DNA of 64,000 bases from Niastella koreensis GR20-10 (GTDB lineage: Bacteria; Bacteroidota; Bacteroidia; Chitinophagales; Chitinophagaceae): NCBI RefSeq assembly GCF_000246855.1, contig NC_016609.1:6832744-6896743 (forward strand), given 5' to 3'. Numbering within the stretch: position 1 is the stretch's first letter; every line of letters starts with the position of its first letter. The notes below the pieces were generated by a model. It was not told the DNA's origin and ran no database searches. It saw only the letters and a list, made by a program, of their open reading frames with translations. Shown here one piece after another: positions 3,455 through 54,253 of this stretch. A program made the position numbers and the translations under genes.

Positions 3455-3611
3455 AAAACATTTTGAGAAACATTAATGAATAGTATTAATGTCTTTACGT
3501 TTAATGTGTATGCTTTCGTGATAAAGTGTTAGAGAGAAACAGTTACATTGTGAGGTGCAACGTGAGGTGATTAACTGCTCCTGACTGCTGCTTTTTAACC
3601 GCGAAAGCATT

Positions 3612-3795
3612 GGTCTCCGTTTTCAGGCAAGTATCCTGGCTCGTTGTTCTGCTACATGCCTTCCCATAACATTGAGGTCTGCTACAGTGGCTTCTTATGC
3701 AGCGCTGTGGGAACAATACCCACTACAACATACAGTTGCGCGACAGCCCGTGATTCACACACGGTTCCTTTTTAATCCTCTCCCGTTCAGGTCAG
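3612..3795 (-). promoter_or_regulatory. Cobalamin riboswitch upstream of metE
   Basis: Read on the minus strand, all conserved cobalamin-aptamer boxes appear in order: AAGGAACCGTG, GTGTGAATC, GCGCAACTGTA, GCCACTGT, GGGAAGGC, and the terminal B12 box GAGCCAGGATACTTGCC. Adenosyl- or methylcobalamin binding normally shuts off the downstream gene, here metE, whose ATG is about 160 nt further on. Between aptamer and ATG, ATGCTTTCG (3610-3602) can pair with CGAAAGCAT (3518-3510). That may be part of the expression platform, but it has a long loop and no T-tract, so control may be translational. The aptamer call is strong; the mechanism is inferred. Confidence 0.95.
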
Positions 3796-3856
3796 AAGAG
3801 AAACCCAAAAACATGCGTTAAAGTAAAGAACTACCCGGCAAATATAAGGAAATCAA

Positions 3857-50743: not shown

Positions 50744-51379
50744 TTAGGTTTTCTTGCCAGAGGCATCCAATGAATTCAATAGCCAGGTCAAACTTTTATT
50801 CATCATTGGCACCATTTGGTCCCGGGGCACCAGCTTCTCGAACCGGTCCCTGATGGCCAGCGATACCATGCCATGCACCATACTCCAGATGGCCATTGAT
50901 ACGGCGTCCACATCCCCTTTTTCTATCAAACCCTTATCCATACACTCCCTAATGGTTTCTTTCAATTTGCCCAGTGCCTGGTCGCCGCTTTTCCATTCAC
51001 AATTTGCATCGAGCGACTCCAAAGCTTCCATGGGTGCTTTTAAAATAAACATCAGTTCATAAAAGGCAGGATTTTCCAGGCCGAACTGGATGTAGTATTC
51101 GCCCATTTTGGCCAGACGAACGACCGGGTTTTTTATTGTCCACAGGTCGGCATTATATTCAGCCATTTTATGAAATCCCTGTTCGTGCAGGTTGAAAAGA
51201 ATCTCGTTTTTATCTTTAAAGTATAGATAAACCGTTGTGGGACTATATTCTATAAGGTCTGCTATTTTACGGATAGACACATTCTCATACCCCTGCTCCA
51301 TGAATAATTTCAGGGATGCATCGAGGATCAATTTCCTGATCTCCTGCTTTTGTTTCTCTTTTCTTTCCGTTATACCCAT
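50744..51379 (-). CDS. TetR/AcrR-family repressor of the efflux operon
   Basis: This transcription factor has 211 residues. The N-terminal HTH domain (about 8-60) begins KQEIRKLILDASLKLFMEQG and continues YENVSIRKIADLIEYSPTTV and YLYFKDKNEILF, the TetR recognition helix with its conserved Y-x-Y-F-x-x-K. The C-terminal ligand domain is helical and variable. It sits immediately upstream of the efflux genes on the same strand and is preceded by a perfect palindrome within its own promoter. It should therefore repress itself and the operon until a ligand binds. Confidence 0.93.
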   Translation of the reverse strand: MGITERKEKQKQEIRKLILDASLKLFMEQGYENVSIRKIADLIEYSPTTVYLYFKDKNEILFNLHEQGFHKMAEYNADLWTIKNPVVRLAKMGEYYIQFGLENPAFYELMFILKAPMEALESLDANCEWKSGDQALGKLKETIRECMDKGLIEKGDVDAVSMAIWSMVHGMVSLAIRDRFEKLVPRDQMVPMMNKSLTWLLNSLDASGKKT

Positions 51380-51489: not shown

Positions 51490-51800
51490 GGAAGGCAAAG
51501 GGCAGGGATGAAAGCAGTGGGCTCCCGATAGCTATCGGAATTCAGTGGACAGTAGGCAGTGGATTCAGGCTGAGTATGGAGCAATGGACGGAGAAAAATG
51601 GCAAACGGCAGGCGGCAAACAAGGAAAGGCAGTGAGAAATTGAGTTCGGCTGAGCCGTGAGCGGTAGACGGCAAAGAGAATGGCAAACGGCAGGCGGTAG
51701 ACGGCAAACAGGGAATGGCAGTGAGCAATTGGGTTCGGCTTAATCGCGGGCGGTAGACAGAGGTGAATGGGAAACGGTCCTGGCTGAGCCAGGAGCAAAC
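51490..51800. repeat. GGCAAACGG/GCAGTGAG word array with CCGATAGCTATCGG module
   Basis: Words such as GGCAAACGGCAGGCGGTAGA, GGCAGTGAG and GGTTCGGCT(GAG) recur across about 300 bp. The segment 51521-51559 contains CCCGATAGCTATCGG and repeats, in reverse orientation, the sequence at 41237-41275. Long open frames on the minus strand here are repeat artefacts. Confidence 0.75.
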
Positions 51801-51929
51801 AGCAAACAGGGAAAGACAATGAATCGCCTGCCCACCAGCCGGCCGATTCGGCGATCGAAGACAGCGGTTAAATGGAAGCAAAACTACCCCGTACGTACTC
51901 TCAACCTAATTTGTGGGACCTTTTATCAT

Positions 51930-52042
51930 AAGGTATTCTTTAGGTATTCTTAGGGTTATGCTAGGGTTATCCCAGGGTTTAAACCCTAAGATAACCCTAG
52001 GATGACCTTAAGATAACCTTAGGATGACCCTGGGATGGAAGG
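51930..52042. repeat. Long palindrome of 11-bp phased AGGGTTAT/ATAACCCT units
   Basis: The centre is AGGGTTTAAACCCT (51974-51987). Around it, units of exactly 11 nt run in register. To the left are AAGGTATTCTT, TAGGTATTCTT, AGGGTTATGCT and AGGGTTATCCC. To the right are AAGATAACCCT, AGGATGACCTT, AAGATAACCTT and AGGATGACCCT. About 41 of the 50 arm positions from 51931 to 52030 can pair (three as G-T); the inner 40 bases pair except for two. No gene is present. Confidence 0.93.
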
Positions 52043-52050
52043 TAGTTGAA

Positions 52051-52375: not shown

Positions 52376-54253
52376 ATGGATAAATTCATTGTTTCAGCCC
52401 GGAAATATCGTCCGCAAACCTTTGACACGGTTGTAGGACAAGCCCATATTACCACCACCCTGCAGAATGCGATCAAGAACCACCACCTGGCGCATGCATT
52501 TTTGTTTTGCGGTCCGCGTGGAGTGGGTAAAACCACCTGTGCACGTATTCTGGCTAAAACCATCAACTGTGATAAGCCTTCGGCAGAAGGGGAAGCGTGC
52601 AATGAATGTCCATCCTGCAATTCCTTTAATGAAGGCACTTCGCTGAACGTATTTGAACTGGATGCTGCCAGTAACAACTCGGTGGAAGACATCCGGTCGC
52701 TGGTAGAAAAAGTGAGATTTGCGCCCGAACCCGGTAAACACAAGGTGTATGTAATTGACGAGGTACACATGTTGAGTTCCTCGGCCTTTAACGCCTTTTT
52801 GAAAACGCTGGAAGAACCGCCTTCCTACGCCATCTTCATTTTGGCCACTACCGAAAAGCATAAAATTCTACCTACCATCCTCAGCCGATGCCAGATCTTC
52901 GATTTCAAACGCATTACCAACAACGATACGGTAGAACACCTGGAAGGCATTTGTAAAAAAGAAGCCATCAATGCCGAGAAGCCAGCCTTACAGATCATTG
53001 CCCGCAAAAGCGAAGGCTGCATGCGCGATGCTCTCAGTATCCTCGATAAAATAGTAAGCTTTACCGCAGGTACCGTTACTTACCAAAATACGCTGGAGCA
53101 CCTGAACATCCTGGATGCAGACTACTATTTTAAATTAATAGACTGCATGCAGAACCAGGACCTTGCCGGCGCCATGTTATTGTATGACGACATTGACCGC
53201 AAGGGTTTTGAAGGCGATATGGTGCTGAACGGGTTTTCTGAATTCATCCGCAACCTGCTGGTTTGTAAAGATGAAAAAGTAGCCGGCCTGCTGCAGGTGG
53301 TAGAAAGCTTTAAGGATAAATACATAGCCACCGGACAAAAAACCCCGGTAGCCTACCTCATAAGCGCCCTGAATATCCTGAACGAAGCCGAGATCAACTT
53401 CAAAAGCGCCCGCAACAAGCGGCTGCATACCGAACTGGCCATTATAAAACTCACGTACCTGCAACAGGCGCTTGAACTGGCTGCCGGCGGGGACGGCCTT
53501 GCTAAAAAAAAAGTAGCTGAGGGAGCCCAGTCGGTAGCTTTTCGTAAGCTGGGAATGGTAGAGCAAAAGAAGGCAGACGGCAAACGGCAAACGGCAGAAA
53601 CTGTTGCTCCGAAAGCTGAAGTTCCAGTAAAAAAAGAACCGACAATTTATCGCCAGCCCACTGACGAAGCAAAGCTTATTATAGAAGAACCTTCGGTTGG
53701 GTATTTGAGTCCGGATGAGGAAGAGTTGAATTATATAAACTCCATGCATTCAGGTGCATCGAACCCGGTTCAGCCTCAACAGTCCGCGAATACAGGTAAA
53801 GCGATGCCCAAATTGGGAACTCTGGAATCCATCAGGCAGAAATATGCAGGCAAACAGGCAGGCAATACCAATCCGGCCATTCCCCTTACGCTGGAGCAAT
53901 TGCAGCAGCATTGGGCCGATTTCTCCCAAAAACTAAAAGATAACAAGAACCCGGCCGCTCAGTCGTTCGATATGGCGCAACTGGTTATTACCAGCGGGAA
54001 TTCGTTTGAAATTGTTACCAACAACAACCTGGAGCAGAAATTCATCGAGGGTGAGCGCCGCGAATTGTCGGAATTTGTACAGCAAAAGTTCAATAACCGC
54101 ACGCTGCTGTTTACGATTGTGGTTACCGATAAGCCGGTAGATTTTGTGCCCACAGAAAAGCCCCTCTCAACCAAAGAACAATACATTAAAATTATAGAAC
54201 AATACCCGCTGGTGAATGAATTGAGGAGCAAGCTGAGGTTAGGGTTTGATTAA
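52376..54253 (+). CDS. dnaX: DNA polymerase III subunit gamma/tau
   Basis: This clamp-loader ATPase has 625 residues. The AAA+ domain (1 to about 230) begins FIVSARKYRPQTFDTVVGQ. Walker A is GPRGVGKTTCARIL, a zinc module is built from NCDKPSAEGEACNECPSC, Walker B is YVIDEVHMLSSSAFNAFLK, and sensor 1 is FILATTEKHKILPTILSRCQ. Domain III follows, then a tau-specific, mostly unstructured C-terminus. An upstream TTG at 52331 is rejected because the promoter overlaps it. An uninterrupted A9 run at codons 377-379 could yield a gamma-like short product. The linker also holds a translated copy of an intergenic word repeat. The 3' end overlaps the end of the M48 gene by four bases. Confidence 0.96.
   Translation: MDKFIVSARKYRPQTFDTVVGQAHITTTLQNAIKNHHLAHAFLFCGPRGVGKTTCARILAKTINCDKPSAEGEACNECPSCNSFNEGTSLNVFELDAASNNSVEDIRSLVEKVRFAPEPGKHKVYVIDEVHMLSSSAFNAFLKTLEEPPSYAIFILATTEKHKILPTILSRCQIFDFKRITNNDTVEHLEGICKKEAINAEKPALQIIARKSEGCMRDALSILDKIVSFTAGTVTYQNTLEHLNILDADYYFKLIDCMQNQDLAGAMLLYDDIDRKGFEGDMVLNGFSEFIRNLLVCKDEKVAGLLQVVESFKDKYIATGQKTPVAYLISALNILNEAEINFKSARNKRLHTELAIIKLTYLQQALELAAGGDGLAKKKVAEGAQSVAFRKLGMVEQKKADGKRQTAETVAPKAEVPVKKEPTIYRQPTDEAKLIIEEPSVGYLSPDEEELNYINSMHSGASNPVQPQQSANTGKAMPKLGTLESIRQKYAGKQAGNTNPAIPLTLEQLQQHWADFSQKLKDNKNPAAQSFDMAQLVITSGNSFEIVTNNNLEQKFIEGERRELSEFVQQKFNNRTLLFTIVVTDKPVDFVPTEKPLSTKEQYIKIIEQYPLVNELRSKLRLGFD
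53504..53520 (+). promoter_or_regulatory. A9 slippery site in dnaX with stops in both other frames
   Basis: Nine A bases (53504-53512) encode three Lys. Slipping back one base (or adding one A) gives AGT AGC TGA, a stop after two codons. Moving forward one (or losing one A) gives TAG at once. Either would end the protein near residue 380, at the boundary between domain III and the tau tail. A CCCAG/CTGGG hairpin with inner AGCTT/AAGCT follows about 15-40 bases on. Confidence 0.6.
53568..53600 (+). repeat. Intergenic word repeat inside the dnaX coding region
   Basis: AAGGCAGACGGCAAACGGCA and the next bases repeat GGCAGACGGCAAACGGC words identical to those in intergenic arrays at 380-470 and 51600-51700. 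Here they are in frame and encode KKADGKRQTAET in the flexible tau linker. Confidence 0.75.

Follow-up and report, generated by a model that had tools for sequence, protein, structure and literature searches.

A Ten-Unit, 11-bp-Phased Palindrome in Niastella koreensis, from a Family of Dispersed Intergenic Arrays That Appear Tied to a Small, Unnamed Protein Family

Results

A quasi-palindromic array between a regulator gene and a dnaX-like gene

The window, the whole stretch of 64,000 nucleotides that was analyzed, corresponds to positions 6,832,744-6,896,743 of the single 9,033,684-bp contig that makes up the genome of Niastella koreensis GR20-10. In this window, a minus-strand gene (50744..51379), whose product we take from its sequence to be a TetR/AcrR-like regulator and a homolog of which is next to the array in several relatives as well, is followed by a plus-strand gene (52376..54253) that we assume, from its sequence and from an earlier preliminary description of this DNA, to be dnaX-like and to encode DNA polymerase III gamma/tau. 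The gap between them holds a quasi-palindromic array (approximately 51918..52043, no strand) that resembles three other copies in the genome and that is designated here subfamily 1, site B. Its dyad center, AGGGTTTAAACCCT (51974..51987, no strand), has the axis between 51980 and 51981. The right arm (51984..52038, plus strand) consists of five 11-nt units of the pattern CCYWRRGATRN, which from position 51984 read, in order, CCCTAAGATAA, CCCTAGGATGA, CCTTAAGATAA, CCTTAGGATGA, and CCCTGGGATGG, in a register that is kept in the other copies; the left arm (51923..51977, minus strand) mirrors these units with five of its own in inverted orientation. By eye, and without statistics, the array ends on the right in the motif GATGGAAGGTAG (52034..52045, plus strand), with similar ends in many copies, and on the left, again by eye, in a minus-strand motif that reads ACCTTTTATC on the plus strand (51918..51927).

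The preliminary description had called this the most regular structure in the window, and the scores bear it out: the palindrome is both the top ungapped dyad, scoring 38 with 50-nt arms against 29 for the next separate site and a window mean of 12.5 (sd 3.2), and the top lag-11 repeat, scoring 94 against 64 for the best place elsewhere in the window. The 11-nt phase reported there stands as well, but the number of units around the center has to be raised from eight to ten, five consecutive ones in each arm, and the figure of about 41 paired positions out of 50 is reached when G-U pairs are included, Watson-Crick pairs alone numbering 38/50. The symmetry extends over approximately 51918-52043, giving 63-nt arms that are 75% complementary. 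As RNA, the palindrome is predicted to fold with a minimum free energy of -66 kcal/mol (z = -8.9, 200 shuffles).

Copies of the array at shared intergenic sites

A genome-wide search for the units, proposed in the preliminary description, revealed a family of copies. Nucleotide searching recovered four in N. koreensis, the three besides the window copy being at 6.800, 6.979, and 8.873 Mb, and 34 in seven of 10 Niastella genomes when 39 genomes, N. koreensis included, were searched; copy number is 3-6 per genome among the genomes with any. No subfamily-1 match was detected at E ≤ 0.001 in Niastella genomes G001, G006, and G007 or in 29 sampled genomes of other genera. Because alignable copies exist in other genomes, an assembly artifact, which the preliminary description had named as a refuting outcome, is very unlikely. 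None of the 34 copies is found inside an ORF of at least 150 aa; ORFs of 81-136 aa overlap a few of them, and one copy is close to a contig end. Twenty-four of the 34 occupy six sites (A-F), each with common neighbor genes in two to six genomes, and ten were counted as single; a possible seventh shared site (L063/L069, with two shared ORFs) was left uncounted. Site A is near what is presumably a citrate synthase gene and site E is by a presumed ferrochelatase gene, both named from their sequences. One gap can hold different array families in different species, and site E of N. koreensis is occupied by a GGTGATTCCGA-type array.

Mean identity, taken as averages without a significance test, was 0.738 for paralogs in the same genome (67 pairs; sd 0.07), 0.703 for orthologs between genomes (42 pairs), and 0.683 for nonorthologs between genomes (419 pairs). 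This ranking is not kept in every genome pair, the orthologs of G000 and G008 being 0.805 identical versus 0.792 for the G000 paralogs. Copy L069, with one inserted base, was left out of this comparison and of the position-wise arm test described below. Subfamily-1 copies would seem to evolve as a set, and their resemblance within genomes fits either a common partner for the sites or re-seeding.

The pattern of three right-arm units was also compared with 84,980 species genomes, which gave 57 loci. Outside Niastella, which is among them, these include Paraflavitalea pollutisoli (seven loci) and Flavihumibacter (three loci), with the Niastella layout wherever the stretch shows it, and the Bacteroidales-labelled MAG bin-3998 (ten loci), with a related layout; several matches in unrelated phyla resemble plain tandem repeats. 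The four N. koreensis copies lie within ~1.3 Mb of a GC-skew minimum near 7.65 Mb, as placed from 40 sampled stretches.

The dnaX gene was located in 28/29 genomes. An 11-nt array is found no more than 1.5 kb from dnaX in N. koreensis and in three of the 27 others: Niastella populi and Niastella sp. OAS944, with subfamily-1 units, and Niastella soli, with a subfamily-3 array. No array was seen in the dnaX stretch examined in the remaining 24 genomes, two of which (G008 and G027) have almost no sequence upstream of dnaX and five of which are Niastella; one of these five, N. yeongjuensis, has a copy ~4.3 kb from dnaX. The comparison of the dnaX gap suggested in the preliminary description is thus positive for three relatives and blank for 24, and the refuting outcome named there, relatives that lack both the palindrome and its phase, did not come about.

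Families with other units and a similar layout

When 1.30 Mb of N. koreensis sequence, with some overlap, was scanned at lag 11, there were 10 hits, which fall at nine places; five of these places were new and had other unit sequences. For comparison, lag 12 gave a single hit and lags 9, 10, and 13 gave none; lags 7, 8, 14, and 21 were also rich. One such family, subfamily 3 (CCGTAYATGTC), matches seven places distributed around the N. koreensis genome and is also present in seven other Niastella genomes, among them those without subfamily 1; G008 and four genomes from other families gave no match. Genes beside subfamily-3 copies are codirectional in 18, divergent in six, and convergent in four of 30 cases.

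The lag-11 profile about the center is alike in three families. Its signal reaches ~±80 nt for subfamily 1 and ~±110 nt for each of the others; no center was detected in L243 of bin-3998 or in one of the 31 subfamily-3 loci. GC content in subfamily 1 has a period of 11.0 and a phase of ~4.9 in both arms; relative to the center, the phase differs between families, being ~4.9 in subfamily 1 and 7.0 and 8.4 in subfamily 3, in an analysis from which two more subfamily-3 loci were dropped and in which the bin-3998 centers are poorly defined. A GGAT core shared across units (5/19, P = 0.016) is weakly supported. The families have different 11-nt units in a similar layout, and the palindrome is a member of a family of dispersed intergenic phased arrays in soil bacteria.

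Loci L213, L216, L230, L238, L239, L252, and L263 of bin-3998 and L257 of bin141 carry very similar arrays of GGATAACCCAA-type units, ~220 bp in length and with a TTATATAG-like center; no partner gene was detected in the stretches examined.

Complementarity between the arms

If pairing of the arms were selected, the arms of one copy should match each other better than arms taken across copies. In subfamily 1, within-copy arm identity was 0.659 versus 0.682 (sd 0.008) when arms were shuffled within the genome, with 1,999 of 2,000 shuffles at or above the observed value (33 copies), and a local-alignment form of the test agreed (46.7 versus 51.7; 2,000/2,000 shuffles; 34 copies). Inner arms (0-60 nt) show no covariation, that is, no excess pairing, in any of the three families: subfamily 1 has a deficit, and the shuffles at or above the observed value were 1,462/2,000 for subfamily 3 and 1,823/2,000 for bin-3998, where eight of the nine loci left after L243 were used, the bin141 locus being at most one among them. 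The outer arms of subfamily 3 do match better within a copy, the observed value being reached by 2/2,000 permutations at 55-115 nt and by 5/2,000 at 120-180 nt, a range that lies beyond most of the array. This excess is contrary to a uniform no-hairpin reading.

No Rfam family matched the array in the window at gathering scores, the only match being a cobalamin riboswitch elsewhere; across six array loci, matches on the arrays were sub-threshold only, and one match, to DUF805b, was off the array in L216. With no compensatory arm matching and no gathering-score Rfam match, the cruciform and the stable RNA hairpin that the preliminary description had put forward find no support, and the subfamily-1 palindrome does not look like a hairpin element.

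A small-protein gene adjoining the arrays

The sister array at site A lies directly upstream of a gene encoding a protein of ~100 aa (106 aa; N. koreensis 6,800,011-6,800,328, minus strand), which starts just downstream of the array and is ~84 kb from the window palindrome. In six Niastella genomes the start of this gene adjoins the array of site A, and two Flavihumibacter homologs of the 106-aa protein also have an array just upstream. The earlier remark that the palindrome explains no gene is therefore true of the window copy but not of its sister, and the homologs tend to follow the sister; most arrays, the window palindrome included, are away from the small-protein gene. The 106-aa protein has no Pfam or NCBIfam family, and no transposase family in either collection matched it at E ≤ 1.

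Protein searching of 79 genomes of the family, N. koreensis included, identified 15 homolog loci in nine genomes. A lag-11 score of at least 50 was found within 300 bp upstream of 8/13 homologs, from five of eight genomes, and a score of at least 45 upstream of 11/13, whereas none of the 13 reached 45 at lags 9, 10, 12, or 13. Among 550 control ORFs of N. koreensis, two reached 50 and five reached 45, so that the difference at the higher score (8/13 versus 2/550) has a Fisher P of 2 × 10−13 with genes treated as independent and with controls from one genome, unmatched for intergenic upstream DNA. Left out of these counts were L292, which was found through its array, L301, which has 33 bp upstream, and L066 and L075, for which the scored frame began at the wrong start; L332 and L336 were unscored, and five protein-search places had no locus. 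In genome G072 there are five genes of this kind, each preceded by an array of different wording; four of these arrays score at least 50 and one scores 47.

A form of ~211 aa has arrays in 4/4 genomes, where the genes are probably orthologs, and the one case scanned contains a nucleotidyltransferase domain (PF01909, 22.9 bits; cutoff 21). Among 17 other longer relatives there is one 11-nt array (L333, score 69); L317 and L318 have a 10-nt repeat upstream, a third relative (L322) reaches 47 at lag 10, and all others are under 50 at every lag tried. In the 300 bp upstream of relatives of ~190 aa (L324, L315, L328, L330, L326, and similar), several of these genes have, by eye, similar and apparently structured sequences in place of an 11-nt array, some of them of the kind GGAGTTTCGCTCAGGGCTAACAG...GAGCG.

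In the predicted fold of a Flavihumibacter homolog, three helices come after a two-strand hairpin (four-sequence alignment; mean pLDDT 79, hairpin ~70-74), and a structural search with this model gave no informative match. The hairpin stretch is net basic in 21/21 aligned rows, and the helical part is basic on average too. Together, these sequence comparisons suggest that the arrays appear tied to a small, unstudied protein family that has no name.

Co-occurrence and a forward test

Nine Niastella genomes are at least 99% complete; six of them (G000, G002, G003, G004, G005, and G009) have both subfamily-1 arrays and the short protein and three (G001, G006, and G007) have neither (Fisher P = 0.012, the unit of the test being the species and not an independent event). 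G008, which is 61% complete, has arrays, and the short protein was not found in it.

It was predicted beforehand that most new short members of the protein family would have arrays. The forward sample was phylum-wide and comprised 395 genomes, with at most 12 candidates scored per genome. Three of seven new short members (L350, L353, and L354) passed the stated threshold, an enrichment that falls short of "most"; L349 scored 48, and L345, L348, and L352 failed. L348 and L352 are one sequence in two genomes, and L349 is a close relative of one of the passes. The nominal P of 1 × 10−5 for enrichment over the control overstates the weight of the result, because the three passes represent two genomes of one genus and two of the four protein lineages in the sample. 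Arrays were found with 0/5 new long members, and the difference between short and long (3/7 versus 0/5) is not significant (P = 0.20).

Discussion

We favor, at a probability of about 55%, the reading that the palindrome is a putative cooperative binding array for the ~100-aa protein family. The preliminary description had suggested a site for a DNA-binding protein, and a phased binding site does fit the evidence best, although the binding itself is something we infer. The palindrome would function as double-stranded DNA, in two opposed rows of five 11-bp units each about a TTTAAA-centered dyad, with the units facing nearly one side of the helix. The likeliest binder would be the ~100-aa protein encoded downstream of the sister array at site A, which may occupy adjacent units in the manner of filament- or wrap-forming proteins, with one 11-bp unit per protomer or dimer and the two rows meeting at the dyad; because the unit spacing is close to one helical turn, neighboring protomers would probably touch. 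The upstream array would let the small protein regulate its own gene, and the protein may mark or tie together the other array sites. Its relatives, whether encoded in the same genome or elsewhere, would each be paired with separate arrays built from a separate unit sequence. A role of the arrays in chromosome organization is the least certain step of this proposal, subfamily 1 being near the GC-skew minimum and subfamily 3 not.

More tentatively, the arrays and proteins might form an undescribed class in the Bacteroidota: small basic β-hairpin proteins, some fused to either a nucleotidyltransferase or a winged-helix domain, each with a private 11-bp-phased dyad array before its own gene and further fixed intergenic copies. 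Protein and unit would drift jointly, and several insulated networks per cell could organize or mark the chromosome; we regard this wider scheme as possible, at well under even odds.

The palindrome could instead be a mobile extragenic palindrome, MITE- or REPIN-like, with little host function, whose spread the small protein aids and whose 11-nt phase is left over from an expansion in tandem. By eye, the copies in the bin-3998 MAG resemble one another closely, as a recent spread would leave them, and one gap can carry different subfamilies by species, as at site E of N. koreensis and in the dnaX gap of N. soli. REPIN-RAYT systems pair repetitive extragenic palindromes with a cognate gene, and the dispersed intergenic palindromic units, the subfamilies per genome, and the gene adjoining one copy all recall them (PMC3116915). 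Against mobility, 24/34 copies are at shared sites, same-genome copies have diverged (mean identity 0.74, sd 0.07), and the small protein has no transposase match in Pfam or NCBIfam. The Niastella element further differs from REPIN-RAYT pairs in being a 10-unit 11-nt phased array with most copies at shared sites, in the 106-aa protein having no detectable transposase domain of the HUH/Y1 kind, and in arms that are not kept complementary, subfamily-1 arm matching being below shuffles despite a stable predicted fold. Target duplications and empty sites were inspected by eye at sites E and F. On balance, we think a mobile element rather unlikely. A structured RNA or cruciform, that is, a long hairpin, transcribed or extruded, with an 11-bp repeat that matches the A-form helical turn, is a good deal harder to sustain: it would account for the very stable predicted fold and for the outer arms of subfamily 3, which match better within than between copies, but none of three families has excess pairing in the inner arms, subfamily 1 has a deficit there, no Rfam family matches the array at gathering scores, and the genes beside subfamily 3 lie in all orientations.

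Nor is a strong DNA gyrase site any more probable, in which 11-bp phasing and two-fold symmetry over ~130 bp would favor gyrase wrapping. The E. coli gyrase motif is symmetric, 130 bp long, and GC periodic at 10.75 bp, so that it and the Mu strong gyrase site resemble the arrays in length (~130 bp), two-fold symmetry, and period (10.75 versus 11 bp) (PMC6379681); a second report gives a GC periodicity of 10-11 bp for gyrases of three species (PMC12324340), and subfamily 1 has its GC period of 11.0 in a common phase in both arms. The phase relative to the center varies by family, however, and because it is not common to the families a single shape-reading protein such as gyrase is disfavored; moreover, the units conserve letters beyond GC content, the sites are few, and a gyrase site would offer no explanation for the tie to a single protein family. 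Least credible of all, in our estimate, is a chromosomal centromere in place of parS in Niastella. A parS site is a 16-bp palindrome, and the arrays share with ParB-parS the small number of sites per chromosome and, for the four subfamily-1 copies, a roughly origin-proximal position, no more than ~1.3 Mb from the GC-skew minimum (near 7.65 Mb). Searching the N. koreensis genome for TGTTTCACGTGAAACA-like parS sites gave one two-mismatch place at 6.255 Mb, off the arrays and equal to the control, and no site above the control; parS clusters are present in several other genera. In opposition, a ParB above the family cutoff is present in N. koreensis, genomes G001, G006, and G007 are without both subfamily-1 arrays and consensus parS, subfamily-3 arrays occur all around the genome and are not origin-proximal, and four sites are few.

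Returning to the cooperative binding array, plasmid R1 carries a locus, parC, whose 11-bp iterons are grouped in fives and bound by ParR. Both systems have 11-bp units in rows of five and a small-protein gene adjoining an array, but the arrays described here are chromosomal, occur at several sites, and have inverted rows. Set beside the ribbon-helix-helix of parC/ParR, the homolog model, with its two-strand hairpin and helices, is of modest confidence, and its structural matches are uninformative. A likeness also exists to DUF6266: a 212-aa protein of G006 matches it (E = 1 × 10−46) and is reached by the small-protein profile (E = 6 × 10−8). The 106-aa protein nevertheless has no match to PF19781, one of six scanned relatives does, and most ~190-aa relatives have no 11-nt arrays. 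No paper on DUF6266 was found in the open-licence literature.

The novelty lies in the array family and in its connection with a protein family that has no name. Features that define REPIN-RAYT pairs (a transposase gene and complementary arms), parS sites, and known RNA elements were looked for and not found. In the open-licence literature, we found no published description of such arrays and none on 11-bp repeats in Bacteroidetes; for Chitinophaga intergenic palindromes or tandem repeats, it yielded only one baculovirus paper. If the pairing of array and protein is true, the arrays would represent a chromosomal element of a new type that comes with its own partner. They would be short, regular, and easily read, with a unit sequence that varies by family and apparently by species. 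They would offer natural matched protein-DNA pairs for the evolution of specificity and for cooperative assembly on phased DNA, a handle on chromosome organization in the Bacteroidota, and a first lead on the unnamed protein family.

Other features of the window and genome

The cobalamin riboswitch in the window (RF00174, 89.9 bits) is at 3609-3823 on the minus strand, upstream of a gene that we take to be metE-like, and in G008 a subfamily-1 array is found in the orthologous gap. Window positions 51560-51830 contain diverged short repeats of the GGCAAAC/GGCAGAC type, recognized by eye, and the richness at lags 7, 8, 14, and 21 extends across the genome sample. In N. koreensis, dnaA is at 0.6 kb, a long way from the GC-skew minimum (~7.65 Mb, 40 samples).
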